NCBI GenBank assembly: GCA_021296255.1
Contig: JAGWAU010000006.1
Coordinates: 85,216-149,215, forward strand
Length of the DNA stretch: 64,000 nt
Source: Alphaproteobacteria bacterium
Lineage (GTDB): Bacteria > Pseudomonadota > Alphaproteobacteria > UBA2966
Direction: 5' to 3'
Shown here: piece after piece, positions 19,904 to 28,915 of the stretch
How the letters are laid out: each line of letters begins with the position of its first letter
Numbering within the stretch: position 1 is the first letter of the stretch
Made by a program: the position numbers and the translations under genes
Notes under the pieces: model-generated
Told to the model about the DNA's origin: nothing
Database searches by the model: none
Seen by the model: only the letters and a program-made list of their open reading frames with translations

Positions 19904-20280
19904 GACCGTCCTCCCGAACCGATGGCTTCAAACGTCACCGCCGGGACACCCTTCAATCCCGGAAAGAGCGATCCAGCCTACATCCATACGCGGGCATGCG
20001 TACACTGCTGTCGTCCCGGGTCCCCATCGGACCCCCGTTCGCCGCCTGTCCGGGTTTGACCCATCGACCGATACGTCGTCCTCAAGAGTCGAACCTTGAC
20101 ATACCGTCATTTCAAACGCGACCTGACGGCGAGGGGTGAAGCGTCACCGCTCTTCGGCAATCGCGGAGGAGACCGACCGGACAGCCGGAATCGGACAACC
20201 AAACTCTCCGGCTTGCTGCAAGCGTTTTCACGCGATATTTCTAGGACCATGCCAAGGCCGTGCCGAACAAGGAAGATTCC
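19904..20280. other. Intergenic region between divergent epimerase and SauS-like genes
   Basis: About 377 bp without a credible gene. TTGACA at 20096-20101 looks like a -35 box for the downstream operon but no good -10 box follows at 16-18 bases. AAGGAAG lies just before ATG 20281 as ribosome site. No riboswitch-like structure was recognised. Confidence 0.4.
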
Positions 20281-21717
20281 ATGGTGTTGAACGAAGCCGC
20301 GACCGCCGTCGACGACGACGCGCAGGAGGACGCGACCATCGCCGGACTGGTGGCCAACGGGCGCGCCGCCATGGCGGCGTTCGCCGATGCCGGCCAGGAA
20401 GCCGTCAACGATGCCGTCACCGCCCTCGCCTGGGCGATCTACGAGCCCCAACGCGCGCGCGAACTGGCGGAAATCGCGGTCCGGGACACGGGGCTCGGCA
20501 ACGTCGAAGACAAGATCACCAAGAACCGCCGCAAGACCTTCGGAACGCTGCGCGACCTTCTGCGGGAGAGCGCCAAAACCGTCGGTATCATCGAGGAGCT
20601 TCCGGACCGCGGGCTCGTCAAATACGCCAAGCCCGTCGGCGTGGTTGCCGCCGTCTGCCCCTCGACGAACCCGGCCGCGACGCCGGTCAACAAGTCGATG
20701 CTGGCCGTCAAGGGGCGGAACGCGATCATTCTCGCCCCCTCCCCCGCCGGGCTGTCCGCGACCTCCCGGGTCGCCGGGATGATGCGGGACGAACTTGCCC
20801 GCGCCGGCCACCCGAAGGACCTCGTACAGGTCCTGCCGCGGGTGTCCAAGTCACTTACCCAGAAGCTGATGGACGCCTCGGATCTGGTGGTGGTGACGGG
20901 ATCCCAGGACAACGTGCGCCGGGCCTACAGCAGCGGCAAGCCCGCGATCGGCGTCGGTCTCGGCAACGCGCCCGTGATCATCGACGAGACCGCCGACTTT
21001 GCCGATGCGGCCGCCAAGATCCGCCTCTCCAAGACCTTCGACAACGCTACGTCGTGCTCGTCGGAGAACGCCATCATCATCGTCGATTCGGCCTATGACG
21101 CCGCCATCGCGGCGCTGGAGGCCGAAGGCGGCTATCTGGCCGACCCCGCGGAGAAGCGGAAGATCCAAGACAGCCTGTGGGTCAACGGCAAATTGAACCG
21201 GCACATGATCGCCAAGGACCCGGAGATCTTCGCCGAGATGGCGGGTCTCCCCGAGGAGTCCAGGAAGGCGAAGTTCTTCCTCGTGGAAGAGGCCGGCGCC
21301 GGCAAGGACTATCCGTTCTCGGGCGAGAAACTGTCGCTCGCGCTCACCATCTACCGCGCCAAGGATTTCGACCACGCCATCGAGGTGGTTCGGGACATCC
21401 TCGCCTATCAAGGGGCCGGGCATTCGTGCGGCTTGCACTCGACGAGCGAAGAGAACATACGGAAGCTCGCCGCAGAGCTCGACGTCGTCCGCGTTCTCGT
21501 CAACCAGGCCCATGCCATCGGCAACGGCGGCTCCTTCGACAATGGCCTGAACTTCACCCTGAGCATGGGATGCGGGACCTGGGGCGGCAATTCCATCACC
21601 GAGAACCTCAACTACCGGAACTTCATCAACATCACGCATCTGTCGACCGTGATCCCGGACGAAACGCCCACGGAAGAGAATCTGTTCGGGGCCTACTTCG
21701 CACGCCACGGCCAGTGA
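20281..21717 (+). CDS. Acylating aldehyde dehydrogenase, sulfoacetaldehyde dehydrogenase (SauS)-like
   Basis: 478 residues of the CoA-acylating aldehyde dehydrogenase group: aldehyde + CoA + NAD(P)+ gives acyl-CoA. Catalytic Cys259 is in NATSCSSENAI, the hallmark of this group; PVGVVAAVCPSTNPAATPVNK is the cofactor entrance and NQAHAIGNGGSFDNGL the C-terminal end block. The sequence pattern resembles SauS of sulfoacetate metabolism more than the AdhE or EutE types, judged by eye. A two-subunit SucCD-like CoA ligase follows 20 bp downstream, the combination known for ADP-forming sulfoacetate-CoA ligase with SauS. Start ATG 20281 (AAGGAAG before it) rather than GTG 20260. Succinate semialdehyde or another C2-C4 aldehyde is the alternative substrate. 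Confidence 0.75.
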   Translation: MVLNEAATAVDDDAQEDATIAGLVANGRAAMAAFADAGQEAVNDAVTALAWAIYEPQRARELAEIAVRDTGLGNVEDKITKNRRKTFGTLRDLLRESAKTVGIIEELPDRGLVKYAKPVGVVAAVCPSTNPAATPVNKSMLAVKGRNAIILAPSPAGLSATSRVAGMMRDELARAGHPKDLVQVLPRVSKSLTQKLMDASDLVVVTGSQDNVRRAYSSGKPAIGVGLGNAPVIIDETADFADAAAKIRLSKTFDNATSCSSENAIIIVDSAYDAAIAALEAEGGYLADPAEKRKIQDSLWVNGKLNRHMIAKDPEIFAEMAGLPEESRKAKFFLVEEAGAGKDYPFSGEKLSLALTIYRAKDFDHAIEVVRDILAYQGAGHSCGLHSTSEENIRKLAAELDVVRVLVNQAHAIGNGGSFDNGLNFTLSMGCGTWGGNSITENLNYRNFINITHLSTVIPDETPTEENLFGAYFARHGQ

Positions 21718-21737
21718 CGACACCCCGCTGAATTCCC

Positions 21738-22862
21738 ATGGATTTCGAGGAATACGCCGCGAAGCCGCTGCTCGCGGCCGCCGGCATCGCCATCCCGCGC
21801 GGAGAGACCGTCACGACGCCCGACGAAGCGGCGGCGGCGGCTGAGTCCCTGGGACCCGTCGTCGTCAAGGCGCAGGTACCCGCGGGCAAGCGCGGCAAGG
21901 CGGGCGGCATCAGGCCGGCCGACGACGCGGCGAGCGCCAGGTCCGCGGCAAGCGAGATCCTCGGCATGGCGATCGGCGGCCACACGGTCGAACGGCTCCT
22001 GGTCGAGGAGCGCGCGGACATCGCCCGCGAACTCTATGCCGCCGTACTCAACGACACCGCGAGCAAGGGCCCCCTGGTGCTGTTCTCGACCCTCGGCGGC
22101 ATGGACGTCGAAGAGGCCGCGGCGCAGGACGCGGACGCCGTCCGGCGCCACGCGATCGACATCCGGCACGGCCTCGACCCCGCCGCGGCGGGGAACATTC
22201 TCGACGGCCTGGACCTCGGCGAGGCCACGGAGGCCGTCGCCGACGTTCTCGTGCGGCTGTACGACGTGTGGCGGTCGCGGGACGCGGAGCTGGTGGAGAT
22301 CAATCCCCTCGCCATCACCGGCGACGGGCGGATCGTCGCGCTCGATTGCAAGTTCACCCTGGACGACCTTTCCAAGGTCCGGCACGAAGACATCGTCGGC
22401 AGCGGCGTTCCCGACACGCTCACCGAGCTCGAAGCGCGCGGCCGGGACCTGGGCCTCACCTATATCGAGCTCGACGGGGAGATCGGCATCCTCGCCAACG
22501 GCGCGGGCCTCACGATGACGACCATGGACGCCGTGCGCCACTACGGCGGCGCACCGGCCAACTTCCTGGAGATCGGCGGGCAGTCCTACACCAAGGCCAC
22601 GCCAGCGCTCGACCTCGTCCTCTCCAATCCCAAAGTCAGGAGTCTGGTCGTCAACTTCTGCGGCGCCTTCGCCCGCACCGATGTGATGACCGAAGGCGTC
22701 GTCAACGCCTGGGAAGAGCTCAAGCCCGACGTCCCGGTGTTCTTCTCCATCCACGGCACGGGCTCGAAGGAAGCGGTACCGATCGTCCGGGAGCGCCTGA
22801 AGATGGAGCCCTTCCCGACCATGGACGAGGCCGTACGAGCGGCCATCGCGGCGGCGAAATGA
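21738..22862 (+). CDS. SucC-like beta subunit of an ADP-forming acyl-CoA ligase
   Basis: 374 residues: ATP-grasp N-terminal part (MDFEEYAAKPLLAAAGI, VVVKAQVPAGKRGKAGGI) and a CoA-ligase C-terminal domain with NFLEIGG and KVRSLVVNFCGAFARTDVMTEGVV. It binds nucleotide and carries the catalytic loop that meets the alpha-subunit phosphohistidine. The alpha gene starts four bases before this stop (ATGA overlap), so a heteromer is certain in practice. The preceding acylating dehydrogenase suggests the acyl-CoA is made from an aldehyde. Housekeeping succinyl-CoA synthetase usually sits with TCA genes, absent here; sulfoacetate-CoA or malate-CoA ligase types fit better. Confidence 0.85.
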   Translation: MDFEEYAAKPLLAAAGIAIPRGETVTTPDEAAAAAESLGPVVVKAQVPAGKRGKAGGIRPADDAASARSAASEILGMAIGGHTVERLLVEERADIARELYAAVLNDTASKGPLVLFSTLGGMDVEEAAAQDADAVRRHAIDIRHGLDPAAAGNILDGLDLGEATEAVADVLVRLYDVWRSRDAELVEINPLAITGDGRIVALDCKFTLDDLSKVRHEDIVGSGVPDTLTELEARGRDLGLTYIELDGEIGILANGAGLTMTTMDAVRHYGGAPANFLEIGGQSYTKATPALDLVLSNPKVRSLVVNFCGAFARTDVMTEGVVNAWEELKPDVPVFFSIHGTGSKEAVPIVRERLKMEPFPTMDEAVRAAIAAAK

Positions 22863-23800
22863 GCGACCTCGCCGGCATGATCGTCCGCGCACCCGACCGG
22901 ATGCTCGTGCAGGGCATCACCGGGCGCCAGGGCAGCTTCTGGGCGGAACGCATGCAGGAGTACGGTGCCAAGGTCGTCGGCGGGGTCAACCCGAAACGCG
23001 CCGGCGAGGAGTTCCTGGGCGTCCCCGTCTACGAGAGCGCCGTCGCGGCCGCAAAGGAGACCGAGATCGACGTCGCCGTCATGTTCATTCCGCCGATGGC
23101 CGCCAAGGCCGCGGCGCTCGACGCCATTGAGGCGGGGGTGCGCCTGCTGGTCGTGCTGACGGAACACATCCCGACCCAGGACGTGATGTACTTCATGGCG
23201 GCGGCGAAGGATTCCGGCACGCGGATCATGGGGCCGAACACGGCGGGCCTGGTGACGCCGGGCGAGACCTTCGTCGGCATCATGCCGGCCTGGGAGGAAG
23301 ACATCTGCCGTCCCGGGCGGGTGGGTGTCGTGAGCCGCAGCGGAAGCCTCGGAACCCTGGCGTGTCTCAACCTCGTACAGGCAGGGCTGGGTCAGTCCAC
23401 GGTGCTCGGGCTCGGCGGCGACCCGATCCTCGGAACCACGACGATCGAGGCGCTTCAGGCACTCGAGCAGGACCCGGGAACCGACGCCGTCGTGCTGGTG
23501 GGCGAAATCGGCGGCACGGCCGAGGAGGATGCCGCGGAGTTCATCGCGGCCATGTCGAAACCGGTCGTCGCCTTCATCGCCGGCGGCGCGTCGCCGGCCG
23601 GACGCAAGATGGGTCACGCCGGCGCGATCGTCACGGGCGACAAGGGCACGTACCGGTCGAAACGGAACGCGCTGGAGAAGGCCGGCGCGGCGGTGCTCGA
23701 CATGCCGTCGCAGCTGGGTGAGACGATGCACAAGGTTATGGCCAGCCGAGCGGCCGCCGTGCCACAATCCGGCGCAATCGAATTCCCTACAGACCATTGA
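22859..23800 (+). CDS. SucD-like alpha subunit of an ADP-forming acyl-CoA ligase
   Basis: 313 residues with the CoA-binding motif [15 protein letters not shown] (residues about 18-32), [14 protein letters not shown] and the phosphorylated His in [19 protein letters not shown] (about residue 258). It completes the ligase with the overlapping beta gene. Together with the SauS-like enzyme it could turn an acyl-CoA into acid plus ATP, or activate the acid for reduction. The direction cannot be read from sequence. Confidence 0.87.
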
Positions 23801-23858
23801 AGCGGCGTCATCCGCCCTCGAGGGCGGACTCGAAGCATAGAACAGCGGAGGCCATGTC

Positions 23859-25406
23859 ATGTCAGTCCAGGAAATTCCCGAGGAAATCGGCACTCCCGCG
23901 CCGGAGGTTCAGGCGACCTACGACGACGCGGTACGCCTGTCCGACAAGGTCGTCGTCGACGGCAAGCTCGACTCCGCCGTGACCGACGAGACCTTCGAGG
24001 TGGTCAACCCGGCCTGGCTGAACGTCATCGGATCGTCGCCCCGCTGCCGCGGGGCCGATGTCGACCGCGCCGTCGCCGCGGCCAAGAAGACCTTCAGGTC
24101 GTGGTCGCGCATGACCGCCAAGGAACGCGGCGCGCTCACGCACAAGCTCGCCGACGTCATCGAGGAGCACGCCGACGACATCGCCCGACTCGAAGCCTTG
24201 GAGACCGGCAACGCGTATGCGACGCAGGCGCGGCCCGAACTCGGCATGGCCATCGAGGTGCTGCGCATGTTCGCGGGATTCGCGACCGAACTGAAAGGCA
24301 ACACCGTGCCCTGGCTCAACGGCACGCTGCACTACACCACGCGCGACCCGATCGGGGTGGTCGCCGCGATCATCCCGTGGAACGCGCCGATCCTGCTGTG
24401 GGCCTGCAAGATCGCTCCCGCCATCGTGGCAGGCAACACGGTCGTCCTGAAGACCGCCGAGCAGGCGCCCCTCGCCGTGCTGAAATGCACCGAGGTCGCG
24501 CAGCAGGTGCTCCCGCCCGGCGTGGTCAACACCATCTCGGGCATGGGCGAGGAATGCGGCCGACCGCTCGCCGAGCACAAGGACGTACGCAAGATAACGT
24601 TCACCGGGTCGTGCCCGGTGGGGCGCCAGATCATGCATTACGCGGCGGACAAGATCTGCCCCGTGACGCTGGAGCTCGGAGGCAAGAGCCCCAACATCGT
24701 CATGCCCGATGCCGACCTCGATCTGGCGATCCCCGGCGTCATCCAGGGCATGCGGTTCTCGCGCCAAGGGCAGTCCTGCACGGCCGGTTCGCGCCTGTTC
24801 CTGCACAAGGAGGTCGCGGACCAGGTGATCGAACGCGCCATGGCCGCCATGAAGAACCTGAAGATCGGCGATCCGATGGATCCCGAGAGCGAGATCGGCA
24901 CGATCATCTCGCAGGAGCAGTTCGACCGCGTCACCCGGTACGTCGAGATGGCGCGCAACACGCCCGGCGCGGAGATCCTCTGCGGCGGTGGGCGGCCGGA
25001 CGACCCGGCGCTGCGCAAGGGTCTCTTCTTCGCACCGACGCTGATCAAGGACGTGCCGCACGAATCACCGTGCGCCCAGGAGGAAATCTTCGGGCCCGTC
25101 GCGGTCGTCTTCGAATGGGAGGACTTCGCCGCCGTGCTCGACAAGGCGAACGCCACCGAATACGGCCTCGCCGCGACGTTGTGGACGCGGGACCTCAACC
25201 ACGCGATGCGCTTCGTCGATGAGATCGAGGCCGGCCTGGTTCAGGTCAACCAGTACGGGACGCCGATCGCCAACGTCGCCTATGGAGGGCTCAACCAGAG
25301 CGGCCTCGGCAAGGAGCTGTCGCTCGAGAGCATGCTCGAGCATTTCACCCGCAGCCGCACGGTGATCATCAACCAGGGCACGCCGGATCCGGCCATCAAC
25401 GCCTGA
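23859..25406 (+). CDS. NAD(P)-dependent aldehyde dehydrogenase (betaine-aldehyde-type)
   Basis: 515 residues, normal ALDH superfamily: PWNAPILLWACKIAPAI, FTGSCPVGRQI (cofactor), ELGGKSPNIV (catalytic Glu) and GQSCTAGSRLF with nucleophile Cys307, then EEIFGPV. It oxidises an aldehyde to the free acid, unlike the acylating enzyme upstream. The next gene is a GMC alcohol oxidase, the same pair as in choline-to-betaine oxidation (betA-betB), so the two may convert an alcohol to an acid. Isethionate, choline or similar ethanol derivatives are possible. 58 bp separate it from the SucD-like gene, so one transcript is likely. Confidence 0.88.
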   Translation: MSVQEIPEEIGTPAPEVQATYDDAVRLSDKVVVDGKLDSAVTDETFEVVNPAWLNVIGSSPRCRGADVDRAVAAAKKTFRSWSRMTAKERGALTHKLADVIEEHADDIARLEALETGNAYATQARPELGMAIEVLRMFAGFATELKGNTVPWLNGTLHYTTRDPIGVVAAIIPWNAPILLWACKIAPAIVAGNTVVLKTAEQAPLAVLKCTEVAQQVLPPGVVNTISGMGEECGRPLAEHKDVRKITFTGSCPVGRQIMHYAADKICPVTLELGGKSPNIVMPDADLDLAIPGVIQGMRFSRQGQSCTAGSRLFLHKEVADQVIERAMAAMKNLKIGDPMDPESEIGTIISQEQFDRVTRYVEMARNTPGAEILCGGGRPDDPALRKGLFFAPTLIKDVPHESPCAQEEIFGPVAVVFEWEDFAAVLDKANATEYGLAATLWTRDLNHAMRFVDEIEAGLVQVNQYGTPIANVAYGGLNQSGLGKELSLESMLEHFTRSRTVIINQGTPDPAINA

Positions 25407-25475
25407 GGGGAACGAGGCATCGGACCCCACACGTTCCGTGCATCCGGGTCCGGCACCAATTTCCTTCAACGATCC

Positions 25476-27074
25476 ATGTCCGCCGGGTACGACCACATCG
25501 TCGTCGGCGCCGGTTCCGCCGGCAGCGTGCTCGCCGCGCGGCTGACCGAAGACGGCCGCACGCGGGTCCTGCTGCTCGAGGCCGGCGGCCGGAACTACAA
25601 CGACATCTGGGTGAGGATTCCCCTCGGCGTCGGCAAGATCCTCGACAGCGAACGTTACGTCTGGAAGGACCGGACCGAGCCCGAGATGACGGGTCGCTCG
25701 ATCTACTGGCCCCACGGGCGCCTGCTCGGCGGCTCGAGCTCGGTCAACGGCATGATCCACGTGCGCGGAGAACCGGCGCGCTACGACGAGTGGCGCGACA
25801 TGGGCTGCATGGGATGGGGCTATCCCGAGGTACTGCCCTACTTCAAGCGCCTCGAGACCGCGTCCTTCGGCAATCCGCAGTGGCGGGGACAGGACGGCCC
25901 CATCCACGCGACGAAAGTGGTGACGGACGATCCGGTCTCACAAGCGTTCCTGGAGGCCTGCAAGGAGGCCGGCCTGCCGGAGAACGAGGACTACAACGCG
26001 AGCTCCACCGAAGGGGTCACCCGTCATCAGTTGAGCACCCGCAAGGGGTTCCGGTGCGGGACCGCGGCGGGTTACCTCAACGACGCCAAGCGCCGGCCCA
26101 ACCTGCATATCGTCACCCATGCCGTGGCCAGCCGTGTCCTGTTCGAGGGCCGCCGCGCCGTCGGCGTCGCCTATCGCGTGGATGGCGAAGAGCTGGACGT
26201 CAGGGCCGGAAGGGAGGTCCTGCTGTCGGCCGGCGCGACAGCGTCGCCGCACCTGCTCGAGCTGTCGGGCGTCGGCGACGCGGGACTCCTCAGATCGCAC
26301 GGCATCCCGGTGGTGCGCGACTTGCCCGCGGTCGGGGAGAACCTCTCGGACCATCTGCACAACCGGCTCAACTTCGAAACCACGCACCCCGTCACGGCCA
26401 ACGACATCGTACGCAGCGCTCGGCACGCGGCCCGGCAGTTGCTCCGCTACGTCCTGCACCGGGACGGGATCTTCTCGACGCCCACCTTCAAGGTACAGGC
26501 CTTCGTGCGCTGCCACCCGGAGGCGCAATTCCCGGACGCCCGGATCCAATGCGCCCTGTCGAGCGGCACGAGCCGCTATGCCCGGGACCTCGACCGCTTT
26601 CCCGGCTTCCACATCGGGTCCTATTATCTGTGGCCGGAGTCGCGGGGCTCCATCCACCTGAAATCCGCCGATCCAGAGGAACGGCCGAAGATCCAGGTCA
26701 ACTATCTGGCGCATCTCCGCGACCGGGAAACCACCGTGCTCGCCTTCAAGAAGTCGCGGGAGATCGCGGCGCAACCCGCCTTGCGGAAGGTGATCGTGCG
26801 GGAGACCCGCCCGGGGCCGGAGGCCGTGACCGACGACGAGATCCTCGACTACATCATGCGGACCGGCGAGACCTCTTGGCATCCCGTCGGCACCTGCCGC
26901 ATGGGCTCCGATCCGGAATCGGTCGTCGACGAGGAGCTCCGGGTCCGCGGGCTGGATGGCCTCCGCGTCGTCGACGCCTCGGTGATGCCGCATCAGATTT
27001 CGAGCAACACCAATATTCCGACCATCATGATCGCCGAGCGCGCGGCGGACCTGATCCGGCGGAACCCGACATAG
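25476..27074 (+). CDS. GMC-family FAD alcohol oxidoreductase (choline dehydrogenase-like)
   Basis: 532 residues, glucose-methanol-choline family: N-terminal FAD site YDHIVVGAGSAGSVLAARL, GMC signature 1 GRLLGGSSSVNGMIHVRG, signature 2 near GATASPHLLELSGVG, and the C-terminal catalytic pair in TSWHPVGTCRMG and NTNIPTIMIAERAADLI. It passes electrons from an alcohol to FAD and the respiratory chain. Placed after an NAD aldehyde dehydrogenase and before a selenoprotein gene. Substrate open: choline, isethionate or another polar alcohol. Confidence 0.88.
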   Translation: MSAGYDHIVVGAGSAGSVLAARLTEDGRTRVLLLEAGGRNYNDIWVRIPLGVGKILDSERYVWKDRTEPEMTGRSIYWPHGRLLGGSSSVNGMIHVRGEPARYDEWRDMGCMGWGYPEVLPYFKRLETASFGNPQWRGQDGPIHATKVVTDDPVSQAFLEACKEAGLPENEDYNASSTEGVTRHQLSTRKGFRCGTAAGYLNDAKRRPNLHIVTHAVASRVLFEGRRAVGVAYRVDGEELDVRAGREVLLSAGATASPHLLELSGVGDAGLLRSHGIPVVRDLPAVGENLSDHLHNRLNFETTHPVTANDIVRSARHAARQLLRYVLHRDGIFSTPTFKVQAFVRCHPEAQFPDARIQCALSSGTSRYARDLDRFPGFHIGSYYLWPESRGSIHLKSADPEERPKIQVNYLAHLRDRETTVLAFKKSREIAAQPALRKVIVRETRPGPEAVTDDEILDYIMRTGETSWHPVGTCRMGSDPESVVDEELRVRGLDGLRVVDASVMPHQISSNTNIPTIMIAERAADLIRRNPT

Positions 27075-27179
27075 CCCGCCGTCAAGATGAACCGATGTGC
27101 GCCGCCCGGACCGTGGCTTTATCCGACGGCAAAAATCAGTATATTCCAGGTCGCTAATATCGAGATGGAGGAGACGGTA

Positions 27180-28478
27180 ATGGCACGTTGGGAAGAGCTT
27201 CCGGAGTACGAACGGGAATATCTCGCCGGGCTGCGGCTGCCCGAGTTCGACCATACGCCGTGGACCCCCGCCAAGCCGCTGTCGGAAAGGCGAATCGCGC
27301 TGATCTCGACCGCCGGTATCGAGCGCCGGGGCGACAAGCCCTACCCGTTCTTTTCCGGTGAGTTCCGCCTGATTCCGACCGACGTCGACCCGAGCGAGCT
27401 GGTGATGAGTCACCTGTCGCCGAACTTCGACCGCACGGGCTTCCAACAGGACATCAACGTGGTCATTCCCATCGACCGCATGCGCGAACTGGAGGCCGAG
27501 GGCTTCATCGGGTCGGTGGCGAAGTTCCATTACGCCTTCATGGGCGGGAGCCAGCCCCAGGACATGGAACCCCACGTGCCGGAGCTCGCCAGGCTGCTGC
27601 GCGGAGACGAAGTCGACACGGTGCTGATGTGCCCCGTCTGACCCCGCTGCACGCGCGCCGTCGGCGCGCTAGGCCACTATCTGGAGCGTGAAGGAATCGC
27701 CACGTCGAGCATCAGCCTAGTGCGTTTCCAAACGGAAAAGATGAGGCCGCCGCGAGCGCTGTGGGTGCCCTTCGAATTGGGACGCCCCTTCGGCACGCCG
27801 AACGATCCGGAGTTTCAGACCAAGGTGCTGAAGGCGCTGCTCGGGACACTGGAACCGGAGAACGGCCCGGTCCTGGCGGACTTCGACGAGGACGCGCCGC
27901 CGTCCCCGGCCGATACCGGCGACGATCAGGAGGCCTGGGCGTGCCCGATCGAGCTGCAGGCCCCGCCGCCGCAAACGAAAGGCGACGACGACGCCCTGGA
28001 ACAGGCGTTGCTGCGCGAGATCGGCCAGCTTCGTCCCTGGTACGAACTGTCGGTCGAGCAGCGCGGACGCACGACCGTCGGCGTCAGCCCCCTCGATATC
28101 GAGGGCAACGCCCGGTACATCGCGGCGTTCCTGGGCGATGAGTGGCCCGACTCCCCGTCGGAAGACATGAGCGCGACGGTGGCCCTCAAGCACGCGTTCG
28201 AGGACATGCGCGCGTGGTATTTCGAGGCGGTCGCCGCCCAGCCGGGACGGGTCACGGGGACCTCGACCCAGATCATCGACTGGTTCTGGCACGAAACGAC
28301 CGCCGGCGCCGTGCTCAAGAAGCTCGACGAGGTGTGCCGGGAGAGCGACGACGAGGTGATGCAGGCCTTCGGCGGCTTCCTTCTGCTCCCCCGTTACGTG
28401 ACGGGGTCGGTGGGCGACGGGTCGGACGGCCGCCGGAACGCCGAGTACGGAGACAATCCGGCGATTGCGGCGGAATGA
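27180..28478 (+). CDS. Selenoprotein: glycine/sarcosine/betaine/D-proline reductase selenoprotein B-family, Sec154 at in-frame TGA
   Basis: Read through the TGA at 27639-27641, the frame gives 432 residues with no other stop until 28478. Around the TGA the product reads VLMCPV-Sec-PRCTRAVGALGHYLE, an UxxC redox pair in the place where non-Sec relatives of this family, as I recall them, have CxxC. The part after the TGA (RPPRALWVPFELGRPFG) is the usual second half of the family and has no ribosome site of its own before GTG 27720. A SECIS-like hairpin follows the TGA. The start is ATG 27180, seven bases after GGAGGA. Anaerobic GrdB/PrdB enzymes reduce glycine, betaine or proline through the Sec; the role of the version in aerobic-type genomes is unknown. 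Neighbours are a GMC oxidase and a tautomerase. Confidence 0.88.
27653..27669 (+). promoter_or_regulatory. Candidate bacterial SECIS hairpin for Sec154
   Basis: Seven consecutive G-C pairs (GCGCGCC with GGCGCGC) close a three-base loop GTC at 27660-27662. The loop starts with G and begins 18 bases after the TGA, within the 16-37 base distance and the G-in-first-two-loop-bases rule described for bacterial SECIS elements. It lies inside the coding frame, as required for SelB-dependent decoding. There is no T-run after it, so it is not a terminator. Confidence 0.75.
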
Positions 28479-28543: not shown

Positions 28544-28915
28544 ATGCCCATCGTCAGAGTGCAGATCCCGGAAGGGTATTCGAACGAGGTCAAGGACCGG
28601 ATCGCGGACGGGCTCCGCGACGCCATCAACGACTCCATCGACCCGGGCCAGAACGACCGCTTTCCCGAGACGCGCAAGTGGATCTATCCGGCGATCACGG
28701 AAGCCTACGGCGAATTGGGCAAGGGCCTGCCGACGGTGACCATCGACACGCGGCCGGGACGGTCACGGGAGCAGAAGGACCTCTGCGCCAAGCTGATCTG
28801 CGACCTCTTTGAAAAGGTCATGGGGACACGCGACGTCTACGTCCTGCTGCGCACCACGGAGACGGGGGATCACCTCGCCGGCGGGACGGCGCTGCCCGAG
28901 TGGAAGCCGGGTTAG
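28544..28915 (+). CDS. 4-oxalocrotonate tautomerase-like protein
   Basis: 123 residues beginning MPIVRVQIPEGYSNEVKDRI; after Met removal Pro-1 would be the catalytic base of the tautomerase superfamily. Two beta-alpha-beta halves are visible (PIVRVQIPEG and LPTVTIDTRPG). It resembles the longer CHCH/cis-CaaD-like members rather than the 62-residue 4-OT. A GGAGG ribosome site precedes ATG 28544. It follows the selenoprotein gene by 65 bp, so co-transcription is likely. Substrate unknown. Confidence 0.8.
   Translation: MPIVRVQIPEGYSNEVKDRIADGLRDAINDSIDPGQNDRFPETRKWIYPAITEAYGELGKGLPTVTIDTRPGRSREQKDLCAKLICDLFEKVMGTRDVYVLLRTTETGDHLAGGTALPEWKPG

Follow-up and report, generated by a model that had tools for sequence, protein, structure and literature searches.

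Evidence for a two-domain selenoprotein clade of the GRDB superfamily in an alphaproteobacterial genome

The window analyzed here, a 64,000-nucleotide stretch of a contig from an Alphaproteobacteria bacterium (JAGWAU010000006.1), contains two open reading frames, 27180-27641 and 27642-28478, which share a common phase and are separated only by a TGA at 27639-27641. All window features described below lie on the forward strand. A ribosome-binding-site-like run, GGAGGAG (27167-27173), is located 6 nt upstream of the ATG at 27180, and no ATG was found near the beginning of the second half, where the earliest start-like codon is GTG at 27720. When read through the TGA, the complete gene (27180-28478, including the terminal stop at 28476-28478, which is also TGA) encodes a 432-residue product that contains the motif CPV-U-PRCTRAVG. 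The internal TGA is codon 154, aligned with Sec151 of the PrdB from Terrisporobacter, and the predicted Sec154 forms a UxxC motif with Cys157 (27648-27650), which is invariant in the long form of the family. The initial annotation had proposed same-phase frames split by a lone TGA, a second frame lacking its own ATG, and a joined product carrying Sec in this motif, and the present reading of the locus agreed with all of these. In close copies sharing more than 80% identity, divergence before as well as after the TGA was 0.19-0.46 at third codon positions and only 0.03-0.16 at the first two, indicating that both halves are maintained by selection as protein. An intact single gene at 27180-28478, with Sec read at the internal TGA, is very well supported.

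The codon aligned with the internal TGA was then compared among relatives. In 164 alignments, which are not all independent as some loci overlap or duplicate one place, the codon was TGA in 148, TGC in 11 and TGT in 5, and no other codon was detected. The restriction of this position to TGA or Cys codons excluded a chance occurrence. The non-Sec homologues accordingly carried a Cys codon in 16/16 cases, as anticipated for the U154 site when the gene was initially annotated. Independently assembled genomes from the same genus also have this TGA, and their agreement serves in place of resequencing of the window; loss of the TGA upon resequencing had been named as an outcome that would overturn the assignment. 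A genome lacking selB and selC, or relatives lacking both Sec and Cys at the site, had been listed as further such outcomes, and neither was observed.

The genome holding the window (4.25 Mb in 136 contigs, with 4% contamination) was searched for selA, selB, selC and selD, as had been suggested, and all four were present. A selA-selB-selC operon was located on contig C64, in which tRNA-Sec (selC) had the anticodon TCA (71.7 bits), SelB scored 436 bits (cut-off, 242), and SelA was read in the frame upstream. A SelD domain (309 bits) was detected on contig C65 inside an open frame of 916 codons; this Cys form of SelD (L022, G000:C65:35106-36023) appears to be fused to an N-terminal part resembling FAD/NAD-type oxidoreductases. 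Because the window assembly is 4% contaminated, it matters that G014, a genome of the same genus assembled in 3 contigs, carried the long Sec gene and selB on one contig. Where the window's genome matched formate dehydrogenase, the matching stretches were free of internal TGA codons.

The association with selB was examined in a sample of 385 alphaproteobacterial genomes, in which selB was counted as full-length when it scored above the cut-off. The long form with TGA was carried by 30 of the genomes, and selB was present in 28 of these 30, compared with 26 of the remaining 355 (Fisher p ~2e-25). The selB gene was absent from the genomes carrying a long Cys form (0/3, p = 0.0018). The selB gene was located within 15 kb of the long gene in 12 of the 28 genomes. 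As for the two TGA-form genomes outside this association, G349 had selB only as a fragment at a contig end, and no selB was found in G276, a genome scored 100% complete; its long Sec form (L155, G276:C98:1569-2756) may reflect an assembly gap or a decaying gene.

A SECIS-type hairpin was identified at 27653-27669, consisting of a 7-bp stem (GCGCGCC/GGCGCGC) and a 3-nt loop beginning with G. It lies at a distance of 14-30 nt from the start of the TGA; in the alignment of 118 distinct long sequences, columns 14-20 pair with columns 24-30. The mean pairing was 6.16 of 7, when compared with 5.96±0.02 in 500 shuffles in which synonymous codons were exchanged between sequences (shuffle maximum, 6.03). 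Members of the short subfamily possessed a hairpin at an equal distance built from other bases, such as CCAGACC-GTG-GGTCTGG, which indicated compensatory change. Taken alone, the window hairpin was no more stable than shuffles that preserve its dinucleotide content (z -0.47), and the Rfam search gave no matching SECIS model or family. The evidence for a hairpin just 3' of the UGA with a G starting the apical loop, as in a SECIS element, is comparative.

The protein was assigned to the GRDB superfamily, as it matched PF07355 (Pfam GRDB) with 40.9 bits over a cut-off of 22. The scores against the NCBIfam models for the individual enzymes all stayed below their cut-offs: 119.2 bits against an equivalog cut-off of 300 for PrdB (TIGR04483), and 40.6 against 602 and 49.5 against 65.45 for the GrdB models TIGR01917 and TIGR01918, respectively. 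In the phylogenetic tree, the long forms grouped into a single clade (100/99); the Cys variants among them shared one branch, and PrdB was placed outside. The earlier designation as a "selenoprotein B-family" gene thus holds at the superfamily level, but not for GrdB or PrdB proper, in view of the scores below cut-off, the separate long clade and the genome lacking a pyruvoyl subunit.

The AlphaFold model of the protein (pLDDT 88.5, pTM 0.89) comprised two domains, the first alpha/beta and the second, which starts at around residue 265, helical. The N-terminal PrdB/GRDB-like domain (residues 1-235, 27180-27884), with pLDDT above 90 over most of its length, was aligned by hhalign to PrdB with a probability of 99.8 over residues 25-230. 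The C-terminal helical domain (residues 265-410, 27972-28409) has no counterpart in PrdB or the short paralogues, and just before it lies the conserved Cys255 (27942-27944). C255, E280, W287, Y347, E349, W368 and T373 were nearly or fully invariant in the alignment. No Pfam family matched the C-terminal domain, the fold search of PDB with the AlphaFold model gave no match at E <= 0.001, and the sequence search of PDB returned nothing sensible.

When compared with the known enzymes, the window protein shares with PrdB (TIGR04483; Terrisporobacter WP_228110000.1) the homologous alpha/beta domain and Sec at the same UxxC position (U154/U151), with approximately 36% identity over about 200 residues. 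PrdB, however, is a protein of 241 aa without the C-terminal helical domain and is encoded beside PrdA, whereas the window protein reached 119 bits against the 300-bit cut-off and its genome has no PrdA-type partner. With GrdB/GrdF/GrdH (PF07355, TIGR01917/01918), the protein shares the superfamily match over residues 12-205 and the UxxC motif, but it scored 40-56 bits against cut-offs of 65-800, aligned with GrdB at ~199-404 only, and has no GrdE-type partner (PF09338) in its genome. The short PF07355 proteins (~290 aa, annotated as "glycine/sarcosine/betaine reductase selenoprotein B family protein"), one of which is encoded on contig C56 of the same genome, have the same domain and Sec/Cys site; they differ in the lack of the C-terminal domain, the motif PxUPxCHQ and a mixed use of Sec and Cys. 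The long form is a distinct, mostly Sec-only, two-domain clade within the GRDB superfamily that is neither GrdB nor PrdB.

Glycine, betaine and D-proline reductases hold their substrate on a pyruvoyl subunit (GrdE/PrdA). A search for this subunit with PF09338 gave no match in any of 15 genomes with the long gene (the window's genome and 14 others), while PrdA on a control plasmid was detected. The lack of the subunit in these genomes makes pyruvoyl tethering of the glycine/betaine/D-proline reductase type unlikely.

The scan of genome contigs found 471 stretches encoding relatives, of which 80 were kept, from Alpha-, Beta- and Gammaproteobacteria, Desulfobacterota, Geobacter, Chloroflexota, Nitrospinota and Gemmatimonadota. 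No relative was found on viral contigs, and the plasmid matches reached the N-terminal domain only (PrdB and short forms), with none covering 80% of the query. One of the plasmid-borne relatives, a short Cys member on a Roseomonas plasmid, was located beside selO (L188:4944-7329). Two contigs encoding proteins 80-86% identical to the window protein (L028 and L029) are filed under Gammaproteobacteria and Verrucomicrobia and are possibly misbinned.

Five PF07355 genes were found in the window's genome itself, and TGA occupies one and the same codon in each of them. Besides the window copy, these are a copy on contig C49 (82% identity to the window copy), a tandem pair on C92 (48 and 46%) and the short C56 gene (32%). 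The C49 paralogue (G000:C49:56150-57424; L004, L177) has a Rieske oxygenase gene at its flank, and the tautomerase copy that comes after it is truncated or degenerate. The tandem pair of long Sec genes (G000:C92:28473-30951; L180) has counterparts in G013, G014, L036, L037 and L081; the genes of such pairs are ~30 nt apart within the genus, and pairs also occur in other Alphaproteobacteria and one Chloroflexi genome. It is possible that the two products form a heteromer.

Downstream of the Sec gene in the window, a 4-oxalocrotonate-type tautomerase gene (28544-28915; PF01361, 35 bits) begins after 65 nt. It adjoins the Sec gene also in L026, L027, L029, G013 and G014, and is a steady neighbor within the genus. 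Upstream lie genes for a GMC (choline-dehydrogenase-like) oxidoreductase (25476-27074), an aldehyde dehydrogenase on the same strand as the Sec gene (23859-25406), and a SauS-type acylating sulfoacetaldehyde dehydrogenase together with a two-subunit succinyl-CoA-ligase-like enzyme (20260-23800; 757.7 bits to NF047625 against a cut-off of 600, and SucC/SucD-type matches). The stretch 20260-27074 is likely a sulfonate/alcohol oxidation operon comprising SauS, the two-subunit CoA ligase, and the aldehyde and GMC dehydrogenases, and the SauS and ligase-like genes possibly belong to the same transcription unit as the Sec gene. The GMC gene was kept in L026, L029 and L179 but was not beside the Sec gene in L027 or G014; the GMC, aldehyde dehydrogenase and SauS genes together were retained in G013, but not beside the Sec gene in G014. 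Clustering of the neighbors over 80 distant loci revealed no universal partner. As neighborhoods are not conserved among distant relatives and the sulfonate genes are missing next to the Sec gene in G014 and L027, the assignment to a pathway is weak.

At 9 of 79 distinct genome-contig loci, arsenosugar-type, MerA-like/VTT/DUF547 or MerA-MerC-MerE genes were located within ~6 kb of the Sec gene (L032, L033, L052, L060, L063, L071, L076, L079 and L086), where ArsS TIGR04167, TIGR04169, TIGR04282 and the rSAM-ArsM fusion served as the arsenosugar-type markers. Such neighbors were seen in Burkholderiales, Desulfobacterota and Geobacter, and the linked stretches include L032:3442-7254, L033:398-6478, L060:3685-11778, L063:1487-8345 and L076:2320-7130. 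A MerA-like flavoprotein gene adjoins the Sec gene in L033, L060 and L076, and a MerA-MerC-MerE operon was found in L032. Arsenosugar metabolism was considered as an explanation of the window copy and rejected, because ArsS is absent from the window's genome and was found in only 2 of the 385 Alphaproteobacteria.

Several other explanations of the gene were weighed. Under the first, the TGA would be a genuine stop codon or an artefact of sequencing, and the locus a pseudogene or two separate genes. Standard gene callers split 27180-28478, it is plausible that an automatic pipeline would list two truncated proteins here, and the fragmented assembly with its 4% contamination would leave room for an error. 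We regard this reading as extremely improbable, as the TGA occupies the same codon in more than 100 homologues from independent assemblies with Cys codons as the only alternatives, both halves are under purifying selection, and the association with selB is near-perfect. A genuine subunit of D-proline, glycine, sarcosine or betaine reductase (PrdB/GrdB) acting in Stickland-type reduction would explain the membership in PF07355 and the identity of ~36% to PrdB over residues 25-230 with Sec aligned. This classical reading is largely refuted by the scores for PrdB (119 against 300 bits) and GrdB (40.6 against 602), by the lack of a GrdE/PrdA-type PF09338 protein in the 15 genomes when the control PrdA was found, by the extra C-terminal domain, and by surroundings rich in oxygenases, and it has very little chance of being correct.

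Selenols bind Hg and As strongly, and the nine loci with arsenic- or mercury-type neighbors would fit a long clade of metal(loid)-handling selenoproteins, active in organoarsenical or mercurial chemistry with the MerA-like flavoprotein as reductant. We consider this role unlikely, since most loci have no such genes, ArsS is as rare in the class as described above, and the window copy is accompanied instead by genes for sulfonate, alcohol and aldehyde oxidation. Many redox selenoproteins are antioxidants, and in 12 of 28 genomes selB is no more than 15 kb away from the gene. This proximity could mean that the long form acts as a general thiol/selenol antioxidant or in selenium homeostasis, and stays near selAB as their main client. 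The persistence of Cys forms in genomes without selB, however, indicated that the function is not selenium handling itself; the PrdB relatives are substrate reductases, and the five family members in differing contexts of one genome suggest substrate diversification, so that a role of this kind appears quite improbable.

As a whole, we think it probable that the gene encodes a Sec-decoded protein of 432 residues from a pyruvoyl-free, two-domain clade, in which a selenolate attacks an electrophile; our best guess for the clade is Sec/Cys redox catalysis on an electrophilic small molecule. Comparative evidence shows that SelA, SelB, tRNA-Sec and SelD of the cell decode UGA 154 as Sec, aided by the hairpin just downstream. 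The selenolate of Sec154 would then attack a small metabolite or toxicant at an electrophilic center, which may be a C-N, C-S or metal(loid) bond, and a Se-S bond to Cys157 would remain. Thiols or a flavin disulfide reductase may in turn reduce this bond. The MerA-like flavoproteins encoded near the Sec gene at L032, L033, L060 and L076 are candidate reductases at those loci, and the C-terminal domain with Cys255 might provide a substrate pocket or a second thiol. In the window's genus, the Sec enzyme may serve the oxidative/sulfonate-type catabolic operon around it, and paralogues elsewhere could serve other pathways, arsenosugar-type clusters included.

Sec-containing members of PF07355 were already known from aquatic bacteria and marine metagenomes: the GOS survey of 2008 counted 235 Sec and 110 Cys forms of pfam07355 with UxxC under the name "proline reductase PrdB" (Zhang and Gladyshev 2008, PMC2398784). 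In the portion of that survey available to us, these forms were filed as PrdB, with neither a separation of the long two-domain clade nor a mention of the missing pyruvoyl partner (PMC2398784). Members of the long clade are very likely among these "PrdB" selenoproteins. What is new here is the long two-domain, pyruvoyl-free clade with its strong linkage to selB and up to several copies per genome, although priority is not certain.

We tentatively propose, as a view that may well prove wrong, that the long two-domain proteins make up a selenoenzyme family of their own, widely distributed among both oxygen-respiring and anaerobic bacteria, which would use PrdB/GrdB-like selenolate chemistry without the pyruvoyl subunit, on electrophilic substrates such as organosulfur or organoarsenic compounds, with the helical domain replacing the pyruvoyl partner. 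PrdB/GrdB-type selenoproteins are known from textbooks as enzymes of strict anaerobes that ferment amino acids. The present analysis points to a large related clade, tied to selB and spread over several phyla, of which an alphaproteobacterium rich in oxygenases can carry several copies while lacking the classical catalytic partner. The clade provides a defined, testable set of selenoenzymes, and it may explain the high counts of "proline reductase" in surveys of marine surface waters.
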